A stretch of DNA of 34,801 nt, from assembly GCA_030530315.1 (NCBI GenBank), contig JAUMVG010000036.1, forward strand, positions 1 to 34,801. Direction: 5' to 3'. The position numbers were made by a program, and so were the translations under genes. Below the pieces are notes generated by a model. It saw only the letters and a program-made list of their open reading frames with translations, was not told the DNA's origin and searched no databases. Shown piece after piece: positions 6,261-29,753 of the stretch. This stretch comes from Clostridia bacterium. GTDB lineage: Bacteria; Bacillota; Clostridia; Christensenellales; Aristaeellaceae. Position 1 is the stretch's first letter. Each line of letters starts with the position of its first letter.

Positions 6261-6689
6261 TTATAATTTGCACAGGTATTCCATCGCCCGGGCATAGCCC
6301 TCGAAGCCCAGCCCGATGAAGTGGGCCTCGCAGGCCATGCCGGCATAGGAGAGCCGGCGGAATTCCTCCCGGGCGTTGACGTCGGAGAGGTGCACCTCCA
6401 CCGCGGGCAGCTGGACGGCCTTCAGCGCGTCCAGTATGGCCACCGAGGTGTGGGTGTAGGCGGCGGGGTTGATCACGATGCCCTCGGTGCCGTCGAAGTA
6501 GGACTGCTGGATGCGGTCGACGATGGCCCCCTCGTGGTTGGACTGGAACAGCTCCACCTCGCAGCCCAGCCGCTCCGCCTCCGCGCGGATGTAGCGGCAC
6601 AGGGCGTCGTAATCCCTGTCCCCGTAGATGTGCTTTTCCCGGATGCCCAGCAGGTTCAGGTTGGGCCCGTTAACGATCAACAGCTTCAT
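6261..6689 (-). CDS. aroQ: 3-dehydroquinate dehydratase, type II
   Basis: Converts 3-dehydroquinate to 3-dehydroshikimate, step 3 of the shikimate pathway, by the type II trans-dehydration mechanism. The 142-residue protein has the normal length and the family landmarks NGPNLNLLG (7-15), the flexible-loop Tyr22, NPAAYTHTS (75-82) and the catalytic His100 in VEVHLS. The ATG at 6689 overlaps the end of aroE-aroK by 20 bases and has GGAGG 7 bases upstream. It is the last gene of the aromatic operon. Confidence 0.95.
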   Translation of the reverse strand: MKLLIVNGPNLNLLGIREKHIYGDRDYDALCRYIRAEAERLGCEVELFQSNHEGAIVDRIQQSYFDGTEGIVINPAAYTHTSVAILDALKAVQLPAVEVHLSDVNAREEFRRLSYAGMACEAHFIGLGFEGYARAMEYLCKL

Positions 6690-7911
6690 GGTATGCCTCC
6701 TCTGTCCGCGCGACGGTTTCCTCCGGCGCGCCGTTGTTGTTCACGGCGGCGTCCGCGGCGGCGCGGTACTTCTCCTTCCGCGCCTGCCACATGGCCTCCA
6801 GGGCCTCCGGCGACTTCGACAGCGGCCGCCCGTCCATGCTCAGCGCGTCCAGGCGGCGCTCCAGCAGGATGAGCCTGCCGTTCTGCCGCATGGCCCGCAC
6901 GTTGTCCTCCCGCAGGATCGCCCCTCCGCCGGTGGCGACGACCCGGCCCTTCTCCCGGCAGACCTCGGCGACGACCTGTGCCTCCAGGGCCCGGAAGCCG
7001 GCTTCCCCGTCCCGGGCGAAGATCTCCGGAATGGACATGCCCGCGCGGCGGACGATCTCCTCGTCCAGGTCCACGAAGGTCCGGCCCATGCGATTCGCCA
7101 GCGCCTGTCCCACGCGGCTCTTGCCGCAGCCGGGCATGCCGATCAGGATCAAATTGAGGGCCTCGTCCCGCAGCCGCCGGTGGATGCGTTCGGTCTCAGA
7201 TTCCGGGATGGAGCGCCCCAGGAACAGCTCGGCGGCCTCCCTGGCCTGTCCCACCAGCATGTACAGCCCGCCGCAGCAGGGCAGGCCCCTGGCCTCGGCG
7301 TCCAGGACCAGGGCGGTCTTGTCCGGGTTGTAGATCACATCCAGCACGCCGGTCAGCGCCGGCAGGCGGGAGAGGTCCGCGGCGGAGGCGCCGTTCTTCG
7401 GGTACATGCCCACCGGCGTGGTGTTGATGAGCACCTGGGCGTCGGCGTGGTCCCGGTACAGGGCGTCGTAGTCCACGGGGCCGCTGCGGGAGACGACGAC
7501 GATCTCCCGGGCCCCGAGCCGGCGGCAGGCCGCCCGGGCAGTCAGCGAGGTGCCGCCGCTGCCCAGTATGACCGCCTTTTTCCCGGCGATTTCGACGCCA
7601 GCCCGCCGGGCCATGGCGATGAAGCCGCCGATGTCGGTGTTGTGACCGTAAAGGCTGCCGTCCGCCCGGACGACGAGGGTGTTGACGCAGCCCACCTCCC
7701 GGGCGGTGTCCGACAGGGCGTCGCAGAGGCTGTACGCCAGCTTCTTATAGGGAATGGTGACGTTCAGCCCCTTGAAGTCGCGCCGCGCCAGCAGCTCGGT
7801 GAACTCCCGCTCCGACTGCTCCACCAGCCGGTAGTCGTAGTCGCCCAGCTGGGCGTGGATGGCGGGGGAATAGCTGTGGCCCAGCTTCGCGCCGATCAGG
7901 CCGTAGTCCAT
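6670..7911 (-). CDS. Shikimate dehydrogenase-shikimate kinase fusion
   Basis: One 413-residue chain covers two steps. Residues 1 to about 245 are AroE (3-dehydroshikimate to shikimate, NADPH): GHSYSP (11-16) binds shikimate, NVTIPYK ends at catalytic Lys56, NTD has Asp93, and GSGGTS (117-122) is the nucleotide-binding loop. Residues about 250-413 are AroK/AroL (shikimate to shikimate 3-phosphate, ATP): P-loop GMPGCGKS (258-265), DLDEEI (281-286), GGG (328-330) and GRPL with Arg361/362. Each half keeps its catalytic residues and the frame between them is open, so this is a true fusion, not two overlapping genes. GGAGG lies 10 bases before the ATG. It sits after pheA across a 329-base gap filled with repeats and overlaps aroQ. 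Confidence 0.93.
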   Translation of the reverse strand: MDYGLIGAKLGHSYSPAIHAQLGDYDYRLVEQSEREFTELLARRDFKGLNVTIPYKKLAYSLCDALSDTAREVGCVNTLVVRADGSLYGHNTDIGGFIAMARRAGVEIAGKKAVILGSGGTSLTARAACRRLGAREIVVVSRSGPVDYDALYRDHADAQVLINTTPVGMYPKNGASAADLSRLPALTGVLDVIYNPDKTALVLDAEARGLPCCGGLYMLVGQAREAAELFLGRSIPESETERIHRRLRDEALNLILIGMPGCGKSRVGQALANRMGRTFVDLDEEIVRRAGMSIPEIFARDGEAGFRALEAQVVAEVCREKGRVVATGGGAILREDNVRAMRQNGRLILLERRLDALSMDGRPLSKSPEALEAMWQARKEKYRAAADAAVNNNGAPEETVARTEEAYHEAVDR

Positions 7912-7964: not shown

Positions 7965-8208
7965 AGAGTTAAGAGTTTGGAGTTAAGAGTTTAGAGTGTG
8001 TTTCTAAATGCTGGGAAATGCAGCCTAATACGCCGAAAATGCGCTTCAGGCATTTTAGAAACAGACTCTAGATCAAGAATGCCGAAGAACGAAGCTATGC
8101 TGCCCGCCAAGCAATTCAGGTATCTTCGCGGGAACAGTTGCCTTGTTAAGACATGATTTGTGCGCGGCTGATTGTATCTCAACTCTCAACTCTAAACTCT
8201 CCACTCTC
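7965..8208. repeat. Heptamer-bounded element in the pheA / aroE-aroK gap
   Basis: This occupies the 329-base gap 7912-8240, which holds no gene. The left array (7965-8001) reads on the minus strand as AACTCTT/AACTCCA-type heptamers; the right array (8174-8208) reads on the plus strand GTATCTC, AACTCTC, AACTCTA, AACTCTC, CACTCTC. The two are therefore in opposite orientation. The 170 bases between them include an imperfect inverted repeat, TTTCTAAATGC near 8002 against GCATTTTAGAAAC near 8051. A 63-codon open frame here has no ribosome binding site and looks spurious. Confidence 0.75.
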
Positions 8209-8240: not shown

Positions 8241-9383
8241 TCACTGTTCGTCATAGCATCCCAGGAACGTGAACTTATCGCAGTGGGCCTCAAGCTCGCC
8301 CAGCAGCCGCACGGTATCCGGTTCGGAAGCTGAGGCGGCCATGTCGAAGAAGAAGCGGAACTCGAACTCCCGCCCCGGCAGCGGGCGGCTCTCCAGCTTC
8401 AGCAGGTTGATGCCCGCGATGGCCAGCCGGGACACCACGGCGTTCAGCGCGCCGGGCTCGTGGGCCAGGTTCAGCATCAGCGAAATCTTCCGGGCGTGGG
8501 GATAGATCTCCAGCTTCCGGGAGATGCAGATGAACCGGGTGTAGTTGTTGGGGCTGTTGCTGATGTCCTCCTTCACGATGTCCAGGCCGTACAGGTCGGC
8601 GCAGGCGCGGGAGGCGATGACCGCCAGGTCGTCCCGGTCGCTTTTGGCCACGTATTCGGCGGCGACGGCGGTGTTCTCCATCACCGTCGCCTTGATCTGG
8701 GGCTGGGACGCGAGGAAGTTGCCGCACTGGCGCAAGGCCTGCTCGTGGGAGACGACCTCCCGGATGGGAGTATTTGACGCGCCGTTCTTGCGCATCAGGC
8801 GGTGGTCGATGCGCAGCCGCTGGGCGCCCACGATGTAGAAGTGGTACTTCTCCATCAGGTCGTACACCTGGGTGACGGAACCCGCGGTGCTGTTTTCGAT
8901 GGGCAGTATGCCGTACTGGCACATGCCGCTCTCCACGGCGCGGAACACGCCGTCAAAGCTGTCGAAGTACAGGATGTCGGGGTAGGGGAACAGGCGCTCG
9001 CAGGCCTGCTGGGCATAGGCGCCCTCGGTGCCCTGGCAGGCCACCAGCGCGTGCTCGGGCAGGCGCTTCCCCTCGGTTTCAGACAGGGCCCGGGCGATCT
9101 TGTCCGTCAGCGGGCTCTTGCGTTCCCACAGCGCGGACTGGTAGCTGCGGCTCAGGTCGAAGATGTGGGAATAGAGGGCGTCGACATAGGGAGCCAGCTC
9201 CGACCCGGCCCTGGCGGTGAGCCGGTTGACGATCTCACGCTCCCGGGCGTGGTCGCGGATGGGGCGGCCCGTCTGCTGCTTGGCCTCGGCGACGGCGGCG
9301 GAGCAGGCCATGCGTTTGGCGAACAGCTCGGAGAGCTGGTCGTCGATGGCGTCGATGTTCTGGCGGATCTCATTCAGTTCCAT
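8241..9383 (-). CDS. pheA: Bifunctional chorismate mutase / prephenate dehydratase
   Basis: Makes prephenate from chorismate and then phenylpyruvate, the committed phenylalanine branch. Three domains are seen in 380 residues: an AroQ-type chorismate mutase helix bundle (1-85, with ELNEIRQNIDAIDDQL and later KQQTGRPIRDHAREREI), prephenate dehydratase (about 110-290, from GTEGAYAQQA through GILPIENSTAGSV to the catalytic NYTRF), and a C-terminal ACT domain (about 300-375) with the ESRP phenylalanine-binding motif, so feedback inhibition by Phe is expected. AAGGAG precedes the ATG. The gene starts 20 bases after aroC. Confidence 0.95.
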   Translation of the reverse strand: MELNEIRQNIDAIDDQLSELFAKRMACSAAVAEAKQQTGRPIRDHAREREIVNRLTARAGSELAPYVDALYSHIFDLSRSYQSALWERKSPLTDKIARALSETEGKRLPEHALVACQGTEGAYAQQACERLFPYPDILYFDSFDGVFRAVESGMCQYGILPIENSTAGSVTQVYDLMEKYHFYIVGAQRLRIDHRLMRKNGASNTPIREVVSHEQALRQCGNFLASQPQIKATVMENTAVAAEYVAKSDRDDLAVIASRACADLYGLDIVKEDISNSPNNYTRFICISRKLEIYPHARKISLMLNLAHEPGALNAVVSRLAIAGINLLKLESRPLPGREFEFRFFFDMAASASEPDTVRLLGELEAHCDKFTFLGCYDEQ

Positions 9384-9403: not shown

Positions 9404-10474
9404 TCAGTCGTTCAGCAGCAGGTCGTACAGCACGCAGGCCACGGCGGCCTCCACGACGGGCACGGCCCGGGGGACGATGCAGGGATCGTGGCGGCCGGAG
9501 ACGGCGAGCGGCGCGGCCTCGCCCCGGCTGAGGGATACCGAGCGCTGCTCCAGAGCGATGGAGGGCGTGGGCTTGAAGGCCACCCGCACCACCAGGGGCA
9601 TGCCGCTGGTGATGCCGCCCAGGACGCCGCCGTGGCGGTTGGTCTCGGTGACCACGCGCCCGCCGCTTACAATGAAGGCGTCGTTGTGGGCGCTGCCCCG
9701 CAGCTCCGCGGCGGCGAAGCCCAGGCCGAACTCCACGCCCCGCACTGCGGGGATGCCGAACAGCGCCTGGGCGACGCGGTTTTCCACGCCGTCAAACATC
9801 GGGTCGCCCAGCCCGGCGGGTAGGCCGTCGGCGAAGCATTCCACCACGCCGCCGACGGAATCGCCCCCGGCGCGGGCCTGCTCGATGGCCTCCGCCATGC
9901 GGCGGGTGGCCTCCGGGTCCACGCAGGGCAGCGCGCCTGCGCACAGCCCGTCCATCGGGGGGTGGGCCGGGTCGACGTCCGCGTCCCGTATGCCGGCGAC
10001 GCTGAGCACCCGGGCGCGGACGCGGATGCCCGCCCGCTCCAGCTGCTTCAGCGCCAGGGCCCCGGCGAAGCACAGCGGCGCGGTGAGGCGGCCGGAAAAC
10101 TGGCCGCCGCCCCGGATGTCGTTGTGGCGGCCGAACTTCACGGCGGCGGTGTAGTCCGCGTGCCCGGGCCGGGGCACGTCCCGCAGGCTGTCGTAGTCCC
10201 GGCTGCGGGCGTCGCCGTTTTCGATGACGGCGCACAGCGGCGCGCCGCAGGTCTCGCCCCGGTCGTTGAGGCCGGAGATGATCCGGGGGATGTCCGCCTC
10301 CCGGCGGGCGGTGGACAGGGTCCCGCCCGGAGCGCGGCGGGCCATGAAGGCCCGGATGAAATCCATGTCCGGCACGATGCCGGCGGGGAGCCCCTCGATG
10401 ACCGCGCCGATCATCGGCGAGTGGCTCTGCCCGAAGATCTGCACCACGTACTTACTGCCCAGGCGATTCGACAT
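9404..10474 (-). CDS. aroC: Chorismate synthase
   Basis: Reduced-FMN-dependent elimination of phosphate from EPSP to give chorismate, the last common step. The 356-residue chain shows GQSHSP (15-20) with the conserved active-site His, RRAPGG, and GRHNDIRGGGQFSGR, the FMN/EPSP-binding signature. The length is normal. The start ATG lies within the end of aroA (23-base overlap in another frame), so translation is coupled. No separate flavin reductase domain is present, so FMN must be reduced elsewhere. Confidence 0.95.
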   Translation of the reverse strand: MSNRLGSKYVVQIFGQSHSPMIGAVIEGLPAGIVPDMDFIRAFMARRAPGGTLSTARREADIPRIISGLNDRGETCGAPLCAVIENGDARSRDYDSLRDVPRPGHADYTAAVKFGRHNDIRGGGQFSGRLTAPLCFAGALALKQLERAGIRVRARVLSVAGIRDADVDPAHPPMDGLCAGALPCVDPEATRRMAEAIEQARAGGDSVGGVVECFADGLPAGLGDPMFDGVENRVAQALFGIPAVRGVEFGLGFAAAELRGSAHNDAFIVSGGRVVTETNRHGGVLGGITSGMPLVVRVAFKPTPSIALEQRSVSLSRGEAAPLAVSGRHDPCIVPRAVPVVEAAVACVLYDLLLND

Positions 10475-11660
10475 GCGCGCGCCCTCCCAACTGATTGAAG
10501 TCCCGGAAGAAGTCCGGGTAGGATTTTTCCACGGCCTCCGCGCCGGTGATGCGCGTCGGTCCCTGCGCCGCGGCGGCGAGTATGGCCGCGGCCATGACGA
10601 TGCGGTGGTCGTTGGCGCCGTCCACGGTGCCGCCGGCCAGCGGGAGCCCCCCGTCGACGACGAGTCCGTCCGGCTCGGCCTCCGCCCGTCCGCCCATGGC
10701 GTTGATCATGGCGGCGGTGGTGGCGAGGCGGTCGCTCTCCTTCAGCCGCAGCCGTGCCGCGCCGGTGAGGCGCGTCCTTTGCGGCGCGAGGGCCGCCGCG
10801 GCCGCCAGCGCGGGCACCAGGTCGGGCACATCGCGGACGTCGATCGTCTCGCGACCAGCCAGTTCGGGAAAGGCGCGGTCGCCCTGGGGACTGTCCGGCC
10901 GAAGCCCCTCCAGGCGCACGTCGGAGCCGAGGGCGTTGGCCGCCAGCCAGAAGGCCGCCGCGGACCAGTCGCCGTCCACCTCCACTCGTCCCGGGGAGCG
11001 ATAGGCCTGTCCGCCGGGAACGCGCCAGCCGCCGGGGACGGGGAGGACCTCGATGCCGAACTGCCTCAGGGCGTCCAGCGTCATATCCACGTAGCCCGAG
11101 GACTCCAGCGGCGTGGTCAGGGCGATCTCGCTGTCCTGCGGCAGCAGGGGCAGGGCGAACAGCAGGCCGGTGACGTACTGGCTGGAGACGTTCCCGGGGA
11201 GCGTCCACCGCCCGCCGGAAACGGGCCCCTGCACAGCCATCGGCAGCGTGTCGGAATCGACGCCGGCCCCGTGGGCGCGGAGCGCGCCGGCCAGCGCGGC
11301 GTTGGGGCGCTCCGGGAGCCGACCGTGCCCGGTGAAGCGGACGGGGATGTCCAGGGCGGCGGCCACCGGCAGCAGGAAGCGCAGCGTGGAGCCGCTCTCG
11401 CCGCAGTCCAGAAGCGCCCTTTGCGGGCGAACGGTCCCCGGCGTCACGCGGAGACCGCCCTCGACGGGGCGGATGTCCGTCCCCAGCAGCGCGGCCAGGC
11501 AATGGATCGTTGCCTCGATGTCCCGGTTCGCGGCGCTCAGGCGAATCTCTGTGGGCGCGTCCGCCAGCGCGGCACAGATCAGCGCCCGGTGGGCGGCGGA
11601 CTTGGAGGCGGGGACGCGGACCGTCCCGGCCAGCCTGCCCGGCTCAATGACGATGTTCAT
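10452..11660 (-). CDS. aroA: EPSP synthase (3-phosphoshikimate 1-carboxyvinyltransferase)
   Basis: Transfers enolpyruvate from PEP to shikimate 3-phosphate; the glyphosate target enzyme. The open frame runs on upstream into aroB, but the real start is the ATG at 11660 (MNIVIEPG), which overlaps the aroB stop in an ATGA arrangement and gives 402 residues. Motifs: SKS near 18-20, DCGESGSTLRF in place of the class I GNAGTAMR, VSSQYVTGLL, GDWSAAAFW, LRLKESDRL and NDHRIVMA near the end. The GESGST loop differs from the glyphosate-sensitive class I consensus, so reduced sensitivity is possible, but that is inference. Confidence 0.95.
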   Translation of the reverse strand: MNIVIEPGRLAGTVRVPASKSAAHRALICAALADAPTEIRLSAANRDIEATIHCLAALLGTDIRPVEGGLRVTPGTVRPQRALLDCGESGSTLRFLLPVAAALDIPVRFTGHGRLPERPNAALAGALRAHGAGVDSDTLPMAVQGPVSGGRWTLPGNVSSQYVTGLLFALPLLPQDSEIALTTPLESSGYVDMTLDALRQFGIEVLPVPGGWRVPGGQAYRSPGRVEVDGDWSAAAFWLAANALGSDVRLEGLRPDSPQGDRAFPELAGRETIDVRDVPDLVPALAAAAALAPQRTRLTGAARLRLKESDRLATTAAMINAMGGRAEAEPDGLVVDGGLPLAGGTVDGANDHRIVMAAAILAAAAQGPTRITGAEAVEKSYPDFFRDFNQLGGRAHVESPGQ

Positions 11661-12721
11661 AGGCCCAGCGCCTCCTGCGCCGCCAGCGCCCGCTCGAAAC
11701 GCGCGGGCAGCTCGGCGACGGGTATCTTTTTCAACACGCACCGCCCGATGTCCTCCGGCAGCACCAGCGTCACCGTGCCGCCGGAGCGCTTCTTGTCGGA
11801 CAGGGCCGCCTCCGCCAGCCTTGCCGCCGGGTAGGCGCAGTGGGTGGGCAGGCCGTTGGCCCGCAGGGCGTTCGCCAGCCGCAGGATCAGCGCGTCGGAA
11901 CAGCTCGCGGCGACCGCGGCCATCCACAGGCCGATGCCCACCGCCTGGCCGTGGAGCATCCCCAGGCCGGAGCAGACCTCGATGGCGTGGCCGAAGGTGT
12001 GGCCCAGGTTCAGGAAGGCGCGGTTGCCGGTGTCGAACTCGTCTTCGGCCACCACGTCCCGCTTGTAGGCGACGCAGCGCTCCACCACCTCGTCGATGGT
12101 GTCCCGCCAGTCGCCGCCCTCCAGCAGCGCGAACAGCGCCGGATCGTTCAGCACGCTGCACTTGAGGGCTTCCGCCGCGCCGTTGGAGAGCTGCTCCGGC
12201 GGCAGGTCCCGGAGGATGTCGGTGTCGGTGACCACCAGGCTGGGCTGGTGGAACGCGCCCACCATGTTCTTGCCGAAGGGCATGTCTACGGCGGTCTTGC
12301 CGCCCACGGAGGAGTCCACGGCGGCCAGCAGCGTGGTGGGCAGCTGAACGAAGCGGATGCCCCGGCAGTAGATGGCGGCGGCGAACCCGGCCAGGTCGCC
12401 CACGACCCCGCCGCCCAGCGCCACCACCAGGTCGCCGCGGGACAGCTTTGCCTTGCCCATGGCGTTCAGCAGCTCCGTCAGGGTGTCCAGGTTCTTGCTG
12501 GCCTCCCCGGCGGGGAAGGCGAAGCGAACGACCTCGAAGCCCGCGTAGCTGAAGCTGATCTGCACCCGGTCGCCGTAGAGCTCCTCCACGGTGTCGTCGG
12601 TGACGAGCACGCACTTGCAGGGCCGGATCACCTTCGCGGTCAGCTCGCCGGAACGGTCGATGAGCCCTTCGCCGATCAGGACGTCGTAGGCGGTGGAGGC
12701 GTTGACGTGTACGGTGCGCAT
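11657..12721 (-). CDS. aroB: 3-dehydroquinate synthase
   Basis: NAD- and metal-dependent cyclisation of DAHP to 3-dehydroquinate, step 2. The frame is open to 12787, but the first residues there are translated from a heptamer repeat; the ATG at 12721 (MRTVHVNAS) with GGAAGGGG upstream gives a normal 354-residue protein. Seen: GGGVVGDLAGFAAA near residue 103, RGIRFVQLPTTLLAAVDSSVGGKTAVD following it, and NLGHTFGHAIE near 240 with the metal-binding histidines. Stop and aroA start overlap by 4 bases. Confidence 0.95.
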   Translation of the reverse strand: MRTVHVNASTAYDVLIGEGLIDRSGELTAKVIRPCKCVLVTDDTVEELYGDRVQISFSYAGFEVVRFAFPAGEASKNLDTLTELLNAMGKAKLSRGDLVVALGGGVVGDLAGFAAAIYCRGIRFVQLPTTLLAAVDSSVGGKTAVDMPFGKNMVGAFHQPSLVVTDTDILRDLPPEQLSNGAAEALKCSVLNDPALFALLEGGDWRDTIDEVVERCVAYKRDVVAEDEFDTGNRAFLNLGHTFGHAIEVCSGLGMLHGQAVGIGLWMAAVAASCSDALILRLANALRANGLPTHCAYPAARLAEAALSDKKRSGGTVTLVLPEDIGRCVLKKIPVAELPARFERALAAQEALGL

Positions 12722-12737
12722 GGGAAAACCCCTTCCG

Positions 12738-12774
12738 TTAATTGAAAATTGTGAATTGGGAATTGAGAATTGAG
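12738..12774. repeat. Heptamer array upstream of aroB
   Basis: Five heptamers on the minus strand (AATTCTC, AATTCCC, AATTCAC, AATTTTC, AATTAA) lie directly before the aroB ribosome binding site, in the 124-base gap to the acetyltransferase gene. This is a left-type (G-rich on +) array with no evident right partner before the acetyltransferase stop. Confidence 0.75.
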
Positions 12775-12845
12775 GAAACCGGGGCATTACAGGTTCGCTT
12801 CCAAAGGATAGAAGGAGGCCCTGGAACCGGACGGGATGCGGCTGT

Positions 12846-13319
12846 TCACAAATTCAGCTCCATGTAGCGGCGGTAGGTTTGAAAGCCCACGGCCTCGTAG
12901 AAGGCGAGGGCGTCGTCGTTGAAGGCCCACACGTCCAAATCGAGGCGGTTGAAGCCGCGCTCACGGGCGTCCCGCTTCATGTACTCCACCAGCGCCGTGG
13001 CCACGCCCCTTCTGCGAAAGGCCGCGTCCACGCCGAACTCCTCCACGTGGTAGAAGTCCAGCGGCAGCGTGTAGGGCCCCTCGGGGCGGCGGACGAACTG
13101 CACCGTGGCAAAGCCGGCGATCTCGCCGTCTGCCAGGGCCACGAGGACGTCGAAGCGGTCGGATTCCAGCTGATCGTAGACGTGGGCCTGCAATTCAGGC
13201 CCGAAGCCGGGCTTGAAGTGCCGGGGACGGCCTTCGACGTGCAGGTCGTTCACCTGCCTGCGCAGTTCGTTGACGCGCGCCAGCTCCTCCCGCCGCGCGG
13301 GGCGGACGACGATGCTCAT
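12846..13319 (-). CDS. GNAT family N-acetyltransferase
   Basis: Acetyl-CoA dependent acetyltransferase fold of unknown substrate. The start at 13319 (MSIVVRPAR) is chosen because AAGGAG lies 9 bases upstream; the longer frame to 13430 runs into repeat sequence. The 157 residues show the GNAT pattern: an N-terminal RPARREELARVNELR helix, the acetyl-CoA pyrophosphate loop FRRRGVATAL (101-110) and the C-terminal DDALAFYEAVGF (135-146). It stands between tyrA and aroB inside the aromatic operon, with repeat arrays on both sides. Co-transcription is likely, yet no step of the pathway needs an acetyltransferase, so its job is open. Confidence 0.85.
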   Translation of the reverse strand: MSIVVRPARREELARVNELRRQVNDLHVEGRPRHFKPGFGPELQAHVYDQLESDRFDVLVALADGEIAGFATVQFVRRPEGPYTLPLDFYHVEEFGVDAAFRRRGVATALVEYMKRDARERGFNRLDLDVWAFNDDALAFYEAVGFQTYRRYMELNL

Positions 13320-13348
13320 ATAGACAATCTCCTTTATACTTTGTTTGA

Positions 13349-13456
13349 AGAGTTCAGAGTTAAGAGTTTGGAGTTCAGATAGAGTCAGCCTGGGAAGCGT
13401 GGAAGCGGCGCCCATGCATTTTAATCTCAACTCTTAACGCTGAACGCTCAACTCTT
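13349..13456. repeat. Heptamer-bounded element in the tyrA / GNAT gap
   Basis: The left array (13349-13379) reads on the minus strand GAACTCC, AAACTCT, TAACTCT, GAACTCT; the right array (13422-13456) reads on the plus strand TAATCTC, AACTCTT, AACGCTG, AACGCTC, AACTCTT. The arrays are in opposite orientation and nearly complementary over AGAGTTAAGAGTT, so the transcript could fold into a long stem. The 42-base core carries GCCTGGGAA and GCCCATGCA, both of which recur in the element at 23276-23366. Confidence 0.8.
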
Positions 13457-13460
13457 TTCA

Positions 13461-14291
13461 CTAATCCAGCGCTTCCTTGGCGATTCGGCCCTCCCGCAGC
13501 ACGGGCAGCACCTCGTCCGGGTCGGCGGAGGCCAGGGCGTCCCGGTACTGGTTCAGGCGCAGGATCAGGTCGTCCAGCGCGGGCAGCAGCAGGTCGTTGT
13601 TCTCCAGGAACAGCTCCGTCCACATGGTCTCGTTCATGCGGGCCACGCGGGTCATGTCCAGGAAGCTGCCGGCGGAGAAGCCCTTGTGGTCGGCGGCCAG
13701 CGGGTTTTTCACGTAGGCGCCGGACACCACATGGGCCAGCTGGCTGGTGTAGGCGATCATCTGGTCGTGGGCCTCCGGGGTGCAGAAGCGCACCATCTTG
13801 AAGCCGGACTCCAGGAAGAACGCCTTGGCGGCCTCCCGGGCCTCGATGGGCACCTCCGCCGAGGGGCAGAGGATCATGGAGGCGTTTTCAAACAGGTTGG
13901 CCCGGGCGTAGGCGAAGCCGGAGAACTCCCGGCCCGCCATGGGGTGGCCGCCGATGTAGGTCCAGGGATGGGCGGCGGCGACGGGCTCCACCTGGCGGCA
14001 GACGTGCCGCTTCACCCCGGCGCAGTCGATCACCAGGGCATGGGGACCGAAGGCGTCCGCGTGGGACGCGATCCAGTCCGCGCAGAGCTGGGGGAACAGG
14101 CTGACCAGCACCACGTCGCAGGCGGGCAGCATGTCCTCCGTCAGTTCGTCGTGGATGGCCTCCACGGCCTTCGCCCGAAGGACCACCTCCGGGTCGATGT
14201 CACAGCCGAACACCGCGTGGTCGGTGTGCTTGCGTATGCTCATGGCCAGCGAGCCGCCGATCAGGCCCAGGCCGATAATGCCGATCTTCAT
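13461..14291 (-). CDS. tyrA: Prephenate dehydrogenase
   Basis: Oxidative decarboxylation of prephenate to 4-hydroxyphenylpyruvate, the tyrosine branch. The 276-residue protein has the N-terminal dinucleotide fold GLGLIGGS (7-14); Asp31 at the end of the second strand suggests NAD rather than NADP. DCAGVKRHV (89-97) and GGHPMAGRE (114-122, catalytic His116) follow, then TSQLAHVVSGAY in the helical dimer domain. There is no C-terminal ACT domain, so tyrosine feedback at this enzyme is less likely than control at aroF. It lies 190 bases after aroF, with a repeat element between. Confidence 0.93.
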   Translation of the reverse strand: MKIGIIGLGLIGGSLAMSIRKHTDHAVFGCDIDPEVVLRAKAVEAIHDELTEDMLPACDVVLVSLFPQLCADWIASHADAFGPHALVIDCAGVKRHVCRQVEPVAAAHPWTYIGGHPMAGREFSGFAYARANLFENASMILCPSAEVPIEAREAAKAFFLESGFKMVRFCTPEAHDQMIAYTSQLAHVVSGAYVKNPLAADHKGFSAGSFLDMTRVARMNETMWTELFLENNDLLLPALDDLILRLNQYRDALASADPDEVLPVLREGRIAKEALD

Positions 14292-14312
14292 TGCGTTTCA
14301 CCTTCAGGATCA

Positions 14313-14479
14313 GGGATTGGGGATTAGGGAAAAGGGAATAGGGAACAGGGGAAGCAGGGAACAGGAATGGCTGCTGCCGCGACCACTGCAGGGGCGGTCA
14401 ATGGCCGCCTGCTTACGGTGTAGGATTGCGCGCCCCAGGCGTCGCATCCTTTATTCTCAATTCCCAATTCTCAATTTCC
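14313..14479. repeat. Heptamer-bounded element in the aroF / tyrA gap
   Basis: The left array (14313-14363) is GGGATTG, GGGATTA, GGGAAAA, GGGAATA, GGGAACA, a 9-base unit GGGGAAGCA, then GGGAACA. The right array (14452-14479) is TATTCTC, AATTCCC, AATTCTC, AATTTCC, in opposite orientation. The 88-base core holds an inverted repeat (AGGATTGCG near 14422 against CGCATCCT near 14444). The longest and most regular array of the window. Confidence 0.8.
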
Positions 14480-14481
14480 TT

Positions 14482-15486
14482 CTATCTCACCGCGTATTCC
14501 TTCACGGCCATGATGCGCCGGGCCAGGTCGTCGAACTGTTCGGGGGTGAGGGACTGCTTGCCGTCGCACAGGGCGTGGGGCGGGTCGTTGTGCACTTCGA
14601 TGATCAGGCCGTCGGCTCCGGCGACGGTGGCGGCCATGGCCATGGAAGGCACCAGGTAGGCGTGGCCGGTGCCGTGGCTGGGATCCACCACCACGGGCAG
14701 GTGGGTCAGCCGCCGCAGCACGGGCACCGCGGACAGGTCCAGGGTGTTGCGGGTGTAGGTCTCAAAGGTGCGGATGCCGCGCTCGCAGAGTATGACGTTC
14801 TCGTTGCCGCCCGCCATGATGTACTCCGCGCTCATCAGCAGCTCCTCCAGCGTGTTGGCGAGGCCCCGCTTGAGCAAAATGGTCTTGCGGGTCTGGCCCA
14901 GCTCCTTGAGCAGCTCGAAGTTCTGCATGTTGCGCGCGCCGACCTGGATCACGTCCACGTCCTCGAACAGGGGCAGGTGGGCGGCCTCCATGATCTCCGT
15001 CACGATGGGCAGCCCGGTGGCCCGCTTGGCCTCGCTGAGCAGTTCCAGGCCCTTTTCATGCAGCCCCTGGAAGGCGTAGGGAGAGGTACGGGGTTTGAAC
15101 GCACCGCCCCGCAGCATGCCCGCGCCGCTGGCCTTCACGCTCTGGGCCACGGCGATGATCTGCTCCCGGGTCTCCACCGAGCAGGGCCCAGCGATGATCT
15201 GGAAGTGGCCGCCGCCGATCTTCACGCCCCCGCAGTCCACCACGGAGTCCTCCTCGTGGAACTTGCGGTTGGCGCTCTTGAAGGGCTCCTGGATGCGCTT
15301 GACGCTCTCCACGATGTCCAGCGAGCTGATCAGGTCCATGTCCACCCGGCTGGTGTCGCCGATCAGGCCGATGATGGTCTGGTTCTGGCCCTTGGAGATG
15401 TGCAGGTCAAAGCCGATGCCCTCCAGCCAGTTGGTCAGGTTCTTCACCTGCTTTTCGTTGACCTTGTCCTTCAACAGAATGATCAT
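14482..15486 (-). CDS. aroF: DAHP synthase, type I beta
   Basis: Condenses PEP and erythrose 4-phosphate to DAHP, the first step and main control point. In 334 residues: an N-terminal ferredoxin-like regulatory domain (1 to about 70), known in this subtype to bind Tyr or Phe for feedback, then the barrel with AGPCSVE (99-105), [34 protein letters not shown] and DPSHGTG, which hold the metal- and PEP-binding residues. It is the first enzyme gene of the aromatic operon, behind the attenuator at 15536-15736. The symbol aroF is used for function; this subtype is also called aroG or aroA(f) in some genomes. Confidence 0.95.
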
Positions 15487-15535: not shown

Positions 15536-15574
15536 CAATAAAATCGGCCCCGCAGTGAGTTTTACTGCAGGGCC
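15536..15574 (-). terminator. Attenuator terminator of the aromatic operon
   Basis: On the minus strand an 11-bp stem (15564-15574 with 15546-15556, one G-U wobble) with a 7-base loop is followed by GATTTTATT. It lies between the leader peptide gene and aroF, so it can only act inside the leader transcript. It is the terminator arm of a transcription attenuator. Confidence 0.88.
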
Positions 15575-15612
15575 GTTGCAAGTCTGGCTTGAATCCGCGG
15601 TACAGCAAAGCT

Positions 15613-15636
15613 CTTTATCTGCCAAAGCCGATAAAG
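15613..15636 (-). promoter_or_regulatory. Candidate 1:2 (pause) hairpin of the attenuator
   Basis: CTTTATC and GATAAAG (7 bp, 10-base loop) pair across the last codons and the stop codon of the leader peptide. A ribosome translating the leader would melt this stem. Its role as the early pause/protector hairpin is inferred from its position. Confidence 0.5.
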
Positions 15637-15671
15637 TAAAAGTAGTAAAAGCTGTAAGCGGTGCGGACCAT
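15615..15671 (-). CDS. Phe/Tyr-rich attenuator leader peptide
   Basis: An 18-codon gene encoding MVRTAYSFYYFYFIGFGR, with four Phe and four Tyr and no Trp. GGAGG lies 6 bases before the ATG, better than for many enzyme genes here. It begins about 30 bases after the predicted transcription start and stops 41 bases before the terminator stem. The design matches leader peptides of enteric amino acid operons: charged Phe/Tyr tRNA shortage would stall the ribosome in the SFYYFYF run and shift RNA folding away from the terminator. Phe and Tyr are the products of pheA and tyrA in this operon. No known homologue is recalled; the identification rests on composition and position. Confidence 0.9.
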   Translation of the reverse strand: MVRTAYSFYYFYFIGFGR

Positions 15672-15707
15672 GGGGTACCTCCGAAGTTTCATACTTTAGT
15701 TGGGTAA

Positions 15708-15736
15708 ATTATAGACGGGTGAAGTAGGTTTGTCAA
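15708..15736 (-). promoter_or_regulatory. Promoter of the aromatic operon
   Basis: On the minus strand consensus TTGACA (15731-15736) and consensus TATAAT (15708-15713) are separated by exactly 17 bases. Such a strong promoter fits an operon controlled after initiation, by attenuation. Confidence 0.92.
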
Positions 15737-26716: not shown

Positions 26717-27485
<769 letters not shown>

Positions 27486-27493
<8 letters not shown>

Positions 27494-28277
27494 GCTTCTC
27501 GCCTCCCTTCAGCATCAGTTCCACGTCCGGCACGGTCTGGGAGCCGTGCATGACGTAGTTCTCCGGGCCGTCCATCTTCTTTTCCAGCCACCGCAGCAGC
27601 CGGGTGACCGTGAAAGTCATCACGAAGTAGACGCAGGAGGTGATGAAGAACACCTCGAAGTACTTGAAGTAGGTGCCCGCCGCGGACTTCGACACGAAGA
27701 ACAACTCCGTCACGGAGATGACGTTCAGCACGGAGGTGTCCTTGATGTTGACCACGAACTCGTTGCCCAGGGCGGGAAGGATGTTGCGGATGGCCTGGGG
27801 CAGCACCACGTTCAGCATGGACTGGCCGTAAGTCATGCCGATGGCCAGCGCGGCCTCCTGCTGGCCGGGGTCCACGCTCTGGATGCCGCCGCGGACGATC
27901 TCCGACAGGTACGCGCCGGTGTTGATCGACACGATCACGAAGCCCGCCAGCAGGTGGGGCAGGTTGATGTGCAGCACCGAGGCCATGCCGTAGAAGATGA
28001 CCATGGCCTGCACGATCATGGGCGTGGAGCGGAAGACCTCGATGTAGACGCCCAGCAGCGTGCGGGCGATCTTCAGCAGCCAGTAGCGCGCAAGGCCGTT
28101 CTCCTTTTCACAGGGCATGGCGCGCACGTAGCCCACGCCCAGGCCGATGATGAAGCCCACGACGGTGCCCGTCAGCGAGATCAGCAGCGTGGTGCCCGCG
28201 CCCTGCAGAAACAGCGGGCCGTAGGTCTTTATGAAGAAGAAAACCCATTCAAAGAAGCCGGATTGCGCGGTCGGCAA
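27486..28277 (-). CDS. Amino-acid ABC transporter permease (probably lysine)
   Basis: Inner-membrane subunit of the HisM/GlnP type, 263 residues with about five helices. It has the conserved [11 protein letters not shown] segment and the EAA loop region [36 protein letters not shown] that contacts the ATPase. The start is probably the TTG at 28277, with AAAGG about 10 bases upstream; this is a weak site and no nearby ATG exists. The gene is separated from the binding-protein gene by 392 bases that hold two heptamer arrays and MITE copy B, so translation may now be poorly linked to that of the binding protein. Confidence 0.9.
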
Positions 28278-28319
28278 GGGAATCAGACCTTTCGTGGTAA
28301 AGTGAAACCCGCAAAAAGC

Positions 28320-28340
28320 GGGGAAAGGGAACGGGGAACG
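28320..28340. repeat. Heptamer array left of MITE copy B
   Basis: GGGGAAA, GGGAACG, GGGAACG; a left-type array that pairs in orientation with 28634-28660 and so bounds an element of about 340 bp containing MITE copy B. Confidence 0.6.
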
Positions 28341-28361
28341 AGCGGCAGCTGTTCGGCTTGC

Positions 28362-28632
28362 TTATACTAATCCCTGACTAAAATAAGACATTTCAGCGGT
28401 TCTTTTCCGCGTTGGCGGCGTTGAAGCCCCTTGACTTTTACGCACCGCCGCTGTTCCGCTCTGCGGAAGCGGCGGCAGCGCCGCGTGAATCCTTCGGATT
28501 CCGACGCGGGCTGGTCGCGCCTGCCTCTGGCAGTGGCGCGACTGCTATGCGCCAGCAAGCCTGCGGGACTTCGCCTTGCCAACGCAAAAAAGCCCTCGCT
28601 GATTCAGTCTCATTTTAATCAGGTCTTAGTAT
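28362..28632. mobile_element. MITE-like element, copy B (longer form)
   Basis: 271 bp with the same imperfect terminal inverted repeats as copy A. The extra middle part (about 28436-28550) holds further hairpins: CCGCCGC/GCGGCGG with TTCCGC/GCGGAA, GAATCC/GGATTC and a GCGCC/GGCGC pair. It stands inside the lysine transporter operon between the binding-protein and permease genes. No gene is encoded. Confidence 0.8.
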
Positions 28633-28633
28633 C

Positions 28634-28660
28634 AATTCCCAATTCTCAATTCTCAATTCA
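28634..28660. repeat. Heptamer array right of MITE copy B
   Basis: AATTCCC, AATTCTC, AATTCTC, AATTCA, directly after the right end of MITE copy B and 10 bases before the binding-protein stop codon. Confidence 0.78.
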
Positions 28661-28669
28661 AAACGCAGT

Positions 28670-29467
28670 TTATTCGGCGGTCACCGGCTGGTTCAGCACG
28701 GCGTTGTCCATCAGGGCGTTGCGGTCGTCGGCGCTGATCTCGGCGAGGGCGGCGTTGATCTGCTCGATCAGCTCCGGCTGGCCCTGCTTGAGCGCTACGG
28801 CGATGGAGGTGTCCTCCTCGGAGGCCTCGAAGCCCGGGGTGACGAAGGTCAGGTCGGCGTTGGCGGCGCAGGCGGAGACCGCGCCGGGACGCTCGGAGAT
28901 GTAGCCGTCGATGGCGCCGGAGGTCAGGGCCGTGATCATGGCCGGGAAGGTCTCCATGGCGGGCATCTGGTTCACGCCCTCCAGCTGGGGAATCACGGTG
29001 TAGTGGAAGGTGTTCAGCTGGGCGGTGATCTTCGCGCCGGCGAAGTCGGCCAGGGTCTGGGCGTCGGCGTAGCCGCCGTCGGCCCGGACGACCACCACCA
29101 GGTCGCTGTTGTAGTAGGCGTCGGTGAAGTCCACGGTGATCTTGCGCTCGGCGGTGGGGGACATGCCCGCGATGACGGCGTCGATCATGCCGGAGTTCAG
29201 GGCGGGGATCAGGCCGTCCCACTCGATCTTGACCACGACCAGCTCCCTGTCCAGGGCCTCGGCGATGCGCTTGGCGATCTCGACGTCGTAGCCGCCGGCA
29301 TAGCCCATGCCGCCGTCGATGGGCACGCTGTTGTCATCGGCCTCCACCTGGGTCCAGTTGAAGGGGGGATAGTCGCATTCCATGCCCACGCGGAACTGGC
29401 CCTCGGCAAAGGCGCAGGCGCTGAGCAGCATCAGGGCGGCCAACAGGATGGTGACGATTCTCTTCAT
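28670..29467 (-). CDS. Lysine-type ABC transporter substrate-binding lipoprotein
   Basis: Extracellular solute-binding protein family 3. The start at 29467 (MKRIVTIL) with GGAGG 7 bases upstream gives 265 residues; a longer frame reads back into the riboswitch leader. The signal peptide ends in the lipobox LSAC (Cys18). The mature protein has FRVGMECDYPPFNW, GYDVEIAKRIAEAL, DAVIAGMSPTAERK and DFTDAYYNSDLVVVV, the typical ligand-contact segments of the family. A lysine riboswitch in the leader indicates lysine as ligand. It is the first gene of the operon. Confidence 0.93.
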   Translation of the reverse strand: MKRIVTILLAALMLLSACAFAEGQFRVGMECDYPPFNWTQVEADDNSVPIDGGMGYAGGYDVEIAKRIAEALDRELVVVKIEWDGLIPALNSGMIDAVIAGMSPTAERKITVDFTDAYYNSDLVVVVRADGGYADAQTLADFAGAKITAQLNTFHYTVIPQLEGVNQMPAMETFPAMITALTSGAIDGYISERPGAVSACAANADLTFVTPGFEASEEDTSIAVALKQGQPELIEQINAALAEISADDRNALMDNAVLNQPVTAE

Positions 29468-29489
29468 GGTGATTGCCTCCTCAAAAGGT

Positions 29490-29529
29490 TGAAATAGAAA
29501 ATGTGGCCGAAGTTCTATACTCCGGTCAC
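29490..29529 (-). terminator. Terminator / expression platform of the lysine riboswitch
   Basis: On the minus strand GTGACCGGAGT and ACTTCGGCCAC form an 11-bp stem with one mismatch, followed by ATTTTCTATTTC. It lies between the aptamer and the start codon, so lysine-dependent termination is expected. Confidence 0.7.
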
Positions 29530-29570
29530 ACGACAACCGCCCTGAAGGGGCAATTCACATTGAGATCAGA

Positions 29571-29735
29571 GATAGCGCTCCACAACGATCGTTGTGACAG
29601 TGAACCGCATGTTCTGCGATTCCCCAACCCGCCGGGCCTCCAGCCCCGACGGATTTCGGCGAAATCCCCTTTCCCGCCGCGTCAGCGCCCCTGGAGGGGC
29701 TCCGCGGCGCTACTGATGAATCCCGCGCCTCTATC
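29571..29735 (-). promoter_or_regulatory. Lysine riboswitch (L-box aptamer)
   Basis: The 165-nt minus-strand leader has the L-box landmarks in order: GATAGAGGCGC (5' strand of P1), ATTCATCAGTAG, GGGAAAGG, GATTTCGCCGAAATCC, GGGGCTGG, a distal hairpin, CACTGTCACAACGATCG and GGAGCGCTATC closing P1. These are the conserved core positions of the family. When lysine is bound, expression of the downstream gene should fall. Confidence 0.93.
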
Positions 29736-29753
29736 GACCATGCATTTTACTTT

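Follow-up and report, generated by a model that had tools for sequence, protein, structure and literature searches.

A putative Phe/Tyr leader-peptide attenuator upstream of aroF in Clostridia

The DNA upstream of aroF in a draft genome of a Clostridia bacterium most likely encodes a trp-type, ribosome-mediated transcription attenuator that senses Phe-tRNA together with Tyr-tRNA and controls transcription into aroF and probably into the downstream genes. Judged from the sequence, we give this reading a probability of about 0.9. The window, that is, the whole stretch of DNA analyzed, is 34,801 nucleotides long (a 34.8-kb contig of a 3.58-Mb draft genome in 144 contigs), and the leader locus lies on its minus strand.

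Leader locus and competing helices

The locus comprises a promoter, a short gene with its own ribosome-binding site, and a terminator, as follows.

15708..15736, minus strand: sigma-70-type promoter, TTGACA-17-TATAAT, with 12/12 consensus matches
15678..15682, minus strand: ribosome-binding site GGAGG of the leader, 6 nt 5' of the ATG
15615..15671, minus strand: leader peptide gene, MVRTAYSFYYFYFIGFGR, conserved in 21/21 genus loci, own included
15545..15575, minus strand: intrinsic terminator (helix 3:4) of 12 pairs
15537..15544, minus strand: T-rich tract of the terminator, ATTTTATT, following the hairpin

The leader frame has 18 codons, 8 of them for Phe or Tyr, and runs from an ATG at 15671 to a TAA stop at 15617-15615. 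Its combination of a short frame, a ribosome-binding site and a run of codons for products of the pathway is that of a trp-type attenuator, and so is the placement of an intrinsic terminator with a T-tract before the structural gene. The preliminary description had proposed a consensus promoter, a GGAGG site, an 18-codon Phe/Tyr-rich frame, and a stem over the last leader codons, and each of these is present (at 15736-15708, 15682-15678, 15671-15615 and 15636-15630 with 15619-15613, respectively). Its terminator with a U-rich tail was also found, but we count 12 pairs where it gave 11 bp, and the T-tract ATTTTATT is interrupted in the window. These elements are confirmed as a non-chance arrangement that recurs in all 21 genus loci, one of which has no promoter consensus. 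Two promoter-like sites occur in the 2.3-kb region compared to a mean of 0.5 in shuffles, and the leader stretch folds at -50.4 kcal/mol compared to -37.9 kcal/mol for dinucleotide shuffles (z -3.0; 1 of 200 shuffles as good).

Strands of the leader RNA can form competing helices.

15651..15656, minus strand: strand 1a, UACAGC (Tyr-Ser codons), pairs with GCUGUA at 15606-15601
15630..15636, minus strand: strand 1b, CUUUAUC (overlaps Phe-Ile codons), pairs with GAUAAAG at 15619-15613
15601..15619, minus strand: strand 2, GAUAAAGAGCUUUGCUGUA, pairs with strand 1 or (15613-15601) with strand 3
15557..15569, minus strand: strand 3 of the antiterminator, the top of the terminator 5' arm plus the loop

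No clean antiterminator had been recognized by eye in the preliminary description. One does exist: GAGCUUUGCUGUA (15613-15601) pairs with UGCAGUAAAACUC (15569-15557) over 12 pairs with one mismatch, and the CTG/CAG pairing that had been half seen is its core. Because antiterminator 2:3 and hairpin 1:2 both need strand 2, they are mutually exclusive, and on paper the three helices 1:2, 2:3 and 3:4 exclude one another in the manner of a trp-type attenuator. Strand 1, taken as 1a plus 1b, brackets the Phe/Tyr run. The helix energies in the window are -9.9 kcal/mol for 1:2, -10.3 kcal/mol for 2:3 and -23.8 kcal/mol for 3:4, so that 2:3 is barely stronger than 1:2, and the 2:3 duplex of the window is equalled by 13 of 100 shuffles. 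The terminator loop TRAAACTC is kept in all 21 genus loci even though the terminator does not need it, since the loop belongs to strand 3. An alternative anti-antiterminator, CAGAUAAA with UUUGCUG, was dropped after the folding and strand-swap tests favored UACAGC/GCUGUA plus CUUUAUC/GAUAAAG.

In the proposed mechanism, when Phe and Tyr are sufficient, the leading ribosome would reach the stop codon at 15617-15615 and cover strand 2, which would block 2:3 and leave terminator 3:4 to stop transcription. Under a shortage of Phe or Tyr, it would instead stall on the Phe/Tyr run between strands 1a and 1b and keep 1:2 open, whereupon 2:3 would form and RNA polymerase would read into aroF. If the leader is not translated at all, 1:2 is predicted to favor termination. 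We infer the stalling, the decision of RNA polymerase, the untranslated state and the response to starvation from the arrangement of the strands. The enteric-type attenuator layout recognized in the preliminary description is supported by the conserved Phe/Tyr codons and terminator and by the 12-pair antiterminator.

Conservation and co-variation of the leader

We searched 60 genomes, made up of the own genome, 27 congeners and 32 more distant genomes. Leader DNA is present in the own genome and in 22 of the 27 congeners; in the five remaining congeners, aroF is either without a match (three) or truncated by the end of its contig (two). All 21 full-length genus loci, own included, share the layout, with GGAGG in 21/21 and the promoter consensus in 20/21. 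The Phe/Tyr run itself varies (YSFYYFYF, YSYFYFYF and YSYYYFYF, among others), with Phe and Tyr exchanged at several positions and the richness kept. Conservation of the Phe/Tyr codons and of the terminator, which the preliminary description had made one half of the test of its proposal, thus holds in the genus and beyond it. One congener (G025) has two leader copies (C5 and C197), each near an aroF match, which may represent a duplicate gene or a strain mixture.

Several leader residues other than Phe and Tyr are also conserved in the genus, namely S after the first Tyr and IG after the run. Such residues are what would be expected of an arrest peptide, in which free Phe/Tyr or the nascent chain, and not low charged tRNA, stalls the ribosome; TnaC is of this type. 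We consider an arrest peptide improbable here, as the conservation largely coincides with the paired strands UACAGC and CUUUAUC, Phe and Tyr interchange within the genus, and the peptides of the class are alike mainly in their Phe/Tyr richness. A peptide-level sensor would also not need the skew among Phe codons, which are TTT:TTC 56:1 in the 21 leaders (TACAGC to stop) compared to 47:289 in 24 window genes, although strand pairing could explain this skew and the needs of pairing may contribute to it.

Within the genus, the helices hardly change. Across 20 distinct rows, 100% of cells form the 1:2 pairs, compared to 98.8% for 2:3 and likewise 98.8% for 3:4, and no two-sided pair changes were found in the three helices, with almost nothing varying. 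The genus counts alone therefore prove little, and the case for co-variation rests on comparison between genera. From the genus alignment, RNAalifold recovered hairpin 1b:2 together with the terminator, and did not recover 1a:2. The high conservation and structure of the RNA in the genus would also suit a metabolite riboswitch or a leader bound by a protein, with the small frame playing no part. However, the leader stretch has no match in Rfam 15 even at E <= 1, the Phe/Tyr richness is kept where the RNA sequence diverges, and strand 1 is made of the codons themselves, so we regard this explanation as very unlikely. An Rfam search of the window and 51 loci (11, 20 and 20; own locus included) likewise returned no leader family and no T-box; it did find tRNAs and, elsewhere in the window, a lysine riboswitch.

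By a loose criterion, every one of the 87 loci whose leader scores 5 or more, 21 of them from the genus, has a terminator-like hairpin between the leader and aroF. A terminator score of <=-16 was reached by 65/67 first-set loci compared to 6/134 shuffled stretches, the shuffled control being counted by score and not by the loose criterion. In the separate class survey, 59/59 leaders have a terminator-like hairpin, 54/59 at a score of <=-16. To compare strands between loci, we used a strand-swap test, in which the pairing of a locus's own strands is set against strands from other loci with row and column effects removed. In the first set (n = 66), own strands pair better for both 2:3 (z -10.7) and 1:2 (z -12.2), with 0/5,000 permutations as low; in the survey (n = 48, near-copies dropped), the values are z -11.9 for 2:3 and z -9.3 for 1:2. 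The control pair 1:3, run on the survey set only, gave z -1.1, with 693/5,000 permutations as low. Thus, 1:2 and 2:3 co-vary between loci and 1:3 does not. The strands of 2:3 have changed and the pairing has been kept, for example, in L008 (UCGUUUUGCUG with CAGUGAAAUGA), L067 (GGUAUCGCUGUG with CGCAGCGAUACC) and L042 (GAGUUU-g-GCUGUG with CGCAGCAAACUC). Tests of the 2:3 duplex in single loci are modest (mean z of -1.7 for 67 loci; 28/67 within the best 5 of 100 shuffles). Leader translation might instead act only via coupling or Rho access, with no antitermination by 2:3; yet terminator-like hairpins occur in all leader loci examined and 2:3 co-varies, which makes this route highly improbable.

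Folding with and without the leader codons occupied had been suggested as a check on the attenuator. We folded the part of the RNA left free by the ribosome, ending the sequence at the last base of strand 3. A ribosome was assumed to mask 13 nt, counted from the A-site codon's first base, and a stalled one was placed at the last Phe/Tyr codon of the run. Across 67 loci, the mean number of strand 3 nucleotides paired upstream is 12.4 with the ribosome stalled, falling to 8.5 without a ribosome and to 5.2 for a ribosome at the stop, while shuffled leaders gave 8.0, 8.7 and 5.5, respectively. The upstream pairing of strand 3 is therefore highest with a stalled ribosome and above that in shuffles, as the attenuator predicts. 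Compared to the state with no ribosome, stalling adds more than 1 nt of pairing in 72% of real leaders versus 24% of shuffled ones. The stalled state exceeds the stop state in 90% versus 57%, and part of this second effect is trivial given that more than half of the shuffles show it. In a related analysis, stalled was lower than stop in 4/67 loci and lower than no ribosome in 2/67, the latter rising to 7% with another way of choosing the codon. In short frames such as those of L081 and L011, a ribosome at the stop sits too far 5' to cover strand 2, so that 1:2 would have to form again after ribosome release for transcription to terminate.

Phe/Tyr leaders across Clostridia

Each locus was scored by the Phe/Tyr count in 10 residues of a short frame within 400 nt before aroF. 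The threshold of 6 in 10 was chosen after a first look at the data, and the class survey used the same threshold unchanged. The first set outside the genus comprises 85 loci (77 named genome contigs and 8 genomes) and omits L003, L049, L057 and L112, which are duplicate, truncated or too short upstream. A leader scoring at least 6 was found in 62/85 of these loci, or 63/85 after one gene start was corrected. The same threshold was reached by 14/1,070 shuffles, 4/107 reverse strands and 14/928 other genes of the same loci; of 13 relisted rows from the other-gene control, 7 read as aroF leaders via another start or an upstream gene.

The class survey, kept separate from the first set, covered 291 genomes, 212 of them with an aroF match. 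From these, 29 new loci and 80 further genomes taken in rank order gave 109 loci (G242 was skipped as too near the contig start), a sample biased to closer AroF relatives, and 107 of the 109 have enough upstream sequence. Leaders scoring at least 6 were found in 59/107 loci, and 71/107 reach a score of 5, over 28 family codes (transcribed by hand). None of the survey leaders scoring 5 or more has its first or last 14 residues in common with a first-set leader. The search of relatives for short Phe/Tyr-rich frames upstream of aroF thus returned many, and the leader is not the oddity in a Gram-positive genome that it had been taken for: with frequencies of 63/85 and 59/107, such leaders are common before aroF in Clostridia.

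A score of at least 6 is absent from 22/85 first-set loci (corrected) and 48/107 survey loci. Of the 20 first-set loci scoring below 5, 16 remain once one locus with a wrong start and three with a more distant upstream frame are set aside. A different reading frame, 80 codons or longer, terminates no more than 120 nt ahead of aroF in 9 of the 16, where aroF may not be the first gene.

Across the class, the leader peptides have little in common beyond Phe/Tyr richness. A second flavor, with Ser/Gly-interrupted runs like ...SFYFSFGYF, occurs in L190-L192, L198-L200, L206, L215 and L216 (family code f42), and the style recurs in other family codes. In L071, a Phe/Tyr leader precedes a gene that resembles, by eye, chorismate mutase/prephenate dehydratase and that is itself upstream of aroF; the element is therefore able to head a differently ordered operon. 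Carriers among named strains include Anaerotignum neopropionicum DSM 3847 (L015), Sporobacter termitidis DSM 10068 (L052) and Angelakisella massiliensis (L031).

On an AroF tree of 112 rows, 88 of them with a leader, presence of the leader requires 18 gains or losses, whereas shuffled labels require 22.1 (as few as 18 in 5 of 500 shuffles). This clustering is weak, and one origin with losses and repeated gains both fit it. Leaders also occur in records labelled Treponemataceae (L033), Lentisphaerae (L040), Victivallales (L067) and Thermoguttaceae (L019). The AroF proteins of these four branch among clostridial rows, with good support for the first and weaker support for the others, which fits either gene transfer or mis-binning. 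Tentatively, and at somewhat less than even odds, the leaders may form an old, vertically kept and fast-diverging Phe/Tyr attenuator family that serves as the main switch of the committed aromatic step across the class Clostridia, beside synthetase T-boxes, and copies of it may have accompanied aroF into Spirochaetota, Lentisphaerota and Planctomycetota.

Downstream operon, T-boxes and known systems

Behind the leader lie co-directional genes, aroF to aroQ, for the shared pathway and for the Phe and Tyr branches.

14482..15486, minus strand: aroF, 3-deoxy-7-phosphoheptulonate synthase (NF006421, TIGR01361)
13461..14291, minus strand: tyrA, prephenate dehydrogenase (best match below its curated cut-off)
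12846..13430, minus strand: GNAT acetyltransferase-like gene between tyrA and aroB (matches below curated cut-offs; start not fixed)
11657..12787, minus strand: aroB, 3-dehydroquinate synthase
10452..11660, minus strand: aroA, 3-phosphoshikimate 1-carboxyvinyltransferase (start approximate)
9404..10474, minus strand: aroC, chorismate synthase
8241..9383, minus strand: pheA, chorismate mutase plus prephenate dehydratase (matches below curated cut-offs)
6670..7911, minus strand: aroE-aroK fusion, shikimate dehydrogenase plus shikimate kinase (matches below curated cut-offs)
6261..6689, minus strand: aroQ, type II 3-dehydroquinate dehydratase

As in other trp-type attenuators, the downstream genes make the amino acids that would be sensed, here Phe and Tyr, and no trp gene is found among the operon proteins examined. 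No minus-strand terminator-like site was found between 6000 and 14600, which makes control of the whole operon by the leader plausible, although a gap of 330 nt after pheA holds a weak promoter-like match (9/12). Three gaps between operon genes (7980-8206, 13349-13448 and 14300-14480, minus strand) contain short inverted-repeat inserts with GAGTTAAGAGTT-like arms, together with GAATTG or CCCTATTCCC-like simple repeats, and these inserts look like small mobile or palindromic intergenic repeats. Elsewhere in the window, the lysine riboswitch (RF00168, 116 bits; 29565-29741, minus strand) lies upstream of an ABC transporter operon at 26717-29536 (SBP_bac_3, permease and ATPase), which suggests a transporter of the lysine type.

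The 66 leaders from the own genome and from outside the genus contain 331 Phe, 270 Tyr and 5 Trp codons, with at least two Phe and at least two Tyr in 63/66; the 59 survey leaders contain 328 Phe, 280 Tyr and 13 Trp codons, with at least two of each of Phe and Tyr in 58/59.

Accounts of how Firmicutes regulate their aromatic amino acid genes usually center on T-boxes and repressors, and the own genome has 17 T-box matches, 4 of them over the Rfam family cut-off and one of these 4 before pheS. For 10 of the 12 T-box loci returned, the downstream genes look pheS-, valS-, cysS-, ileS-, alaS-, leuS-, leuA-, trpX-, TrpB- and aminotransferase-like, several of these identities being partial matches or below curated cut-offs. 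Three T-boxes (L114, L119 and L122) precede pheS, a TrpX-like transporter gene and a TrpB-like gene. Given this company, aroF itself could be under T-box control by uncharged tRNA. We found none at the aroF leader, however, with either the core motif or the Rfam model RF00230, and the core motif occurs upstream of aroF in only 1/109 first-set loci (L070, a short motif) and 1/107 survey loci (L213, with no Rfam match at gathering score). A T-box at this site is accordingly scarcely credible. The organism probably uses a T-box at pheS and seems to use leader translation at aroF, so that a single cell probably monitors Phe charging through two RNA mechanisms.

These results suggest that leader translation, in place of T-boxes, controls DAHP synthase in a large part of the class Clostridia, many gut and rumen lineages among them, and that one peptide would sense two products in a genome that keeps T-boxes on pheS and Trp-related genes. 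The clostridial leader is simple to annotate and offers a tractable case of transcription-translation coupling in Clostridia. No Rfam 15 family was found for this widespread set of putative attenuators. A full-text literature search turned up no description of a Phe/Tyr attenuator ahead of clostridial aroF genes, which is weak evidence of absence, as most subscription journals lay outside the search.

The enteric trp and pheA/pheST leaders are attenuators with codons for the end product. The aroF leader resembles them in having such codons, strand 1 over the codons, mutually exclusive helices 1:2, 2:3 and 3:4, and an intrinsic terminator. Unlike them, it is predicted to sense Phe and Tyr together and stands before DAHP synthase and the shared shikimate steps, in Clostridia; in many clostridial relatives, moreover, strand 2 lies inside the reading frame. 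T-boxes (RF00230), which are used elsewhere in this genome, also sense tRNA charging upstream of amino acid genes, but they bind tRNA directly, have no reading frame and were not found at the aroF leader.

The nearest printed relative that we found is uORFC-13-1, with 24 representatives upstream of aroF in Acholeplasma and environmental sequences, for which Phe-dependent attenuation has been proposed (PMC8632094). Like the leader in the window, it combines a uORF and an adjacent terminator upstream of aroF, and it is described with a possible promoter and ribosome-binding site and a U run coding for at least one Phe (PMC8632094). The parts of that description available to us mention neither an antiterminator nor Tyr codons, and it is by this description that we compare uORFC-13-1 with the clostridial leaders (PMC8632094). 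Leader-peptide attenuation is also described elsewhere in Firmicutes, a group in which T-boxes are common, as His leader peptides of Bacillus hisS*/hisZ (PMC2965389) and a Leu-rich attenuator of branched-chain synthesis in S. aureus (PMC5794164), which concern other amino acids, genes and lineages. As far as the available excerpts go, no conserved RNA structures were seen upstream of Phe or Tyr operons in Actinobacteria (PMC1262725), and T-boxes are reported for Tyr synthesis in the B. cereus group (PMC2494555). Set beside these systems, the leader described here belongs to a known class of attenuator mechanism, and what is new is its breadth, its predicted double sensing before DAHP synthase and its coexistence with T-boxes.
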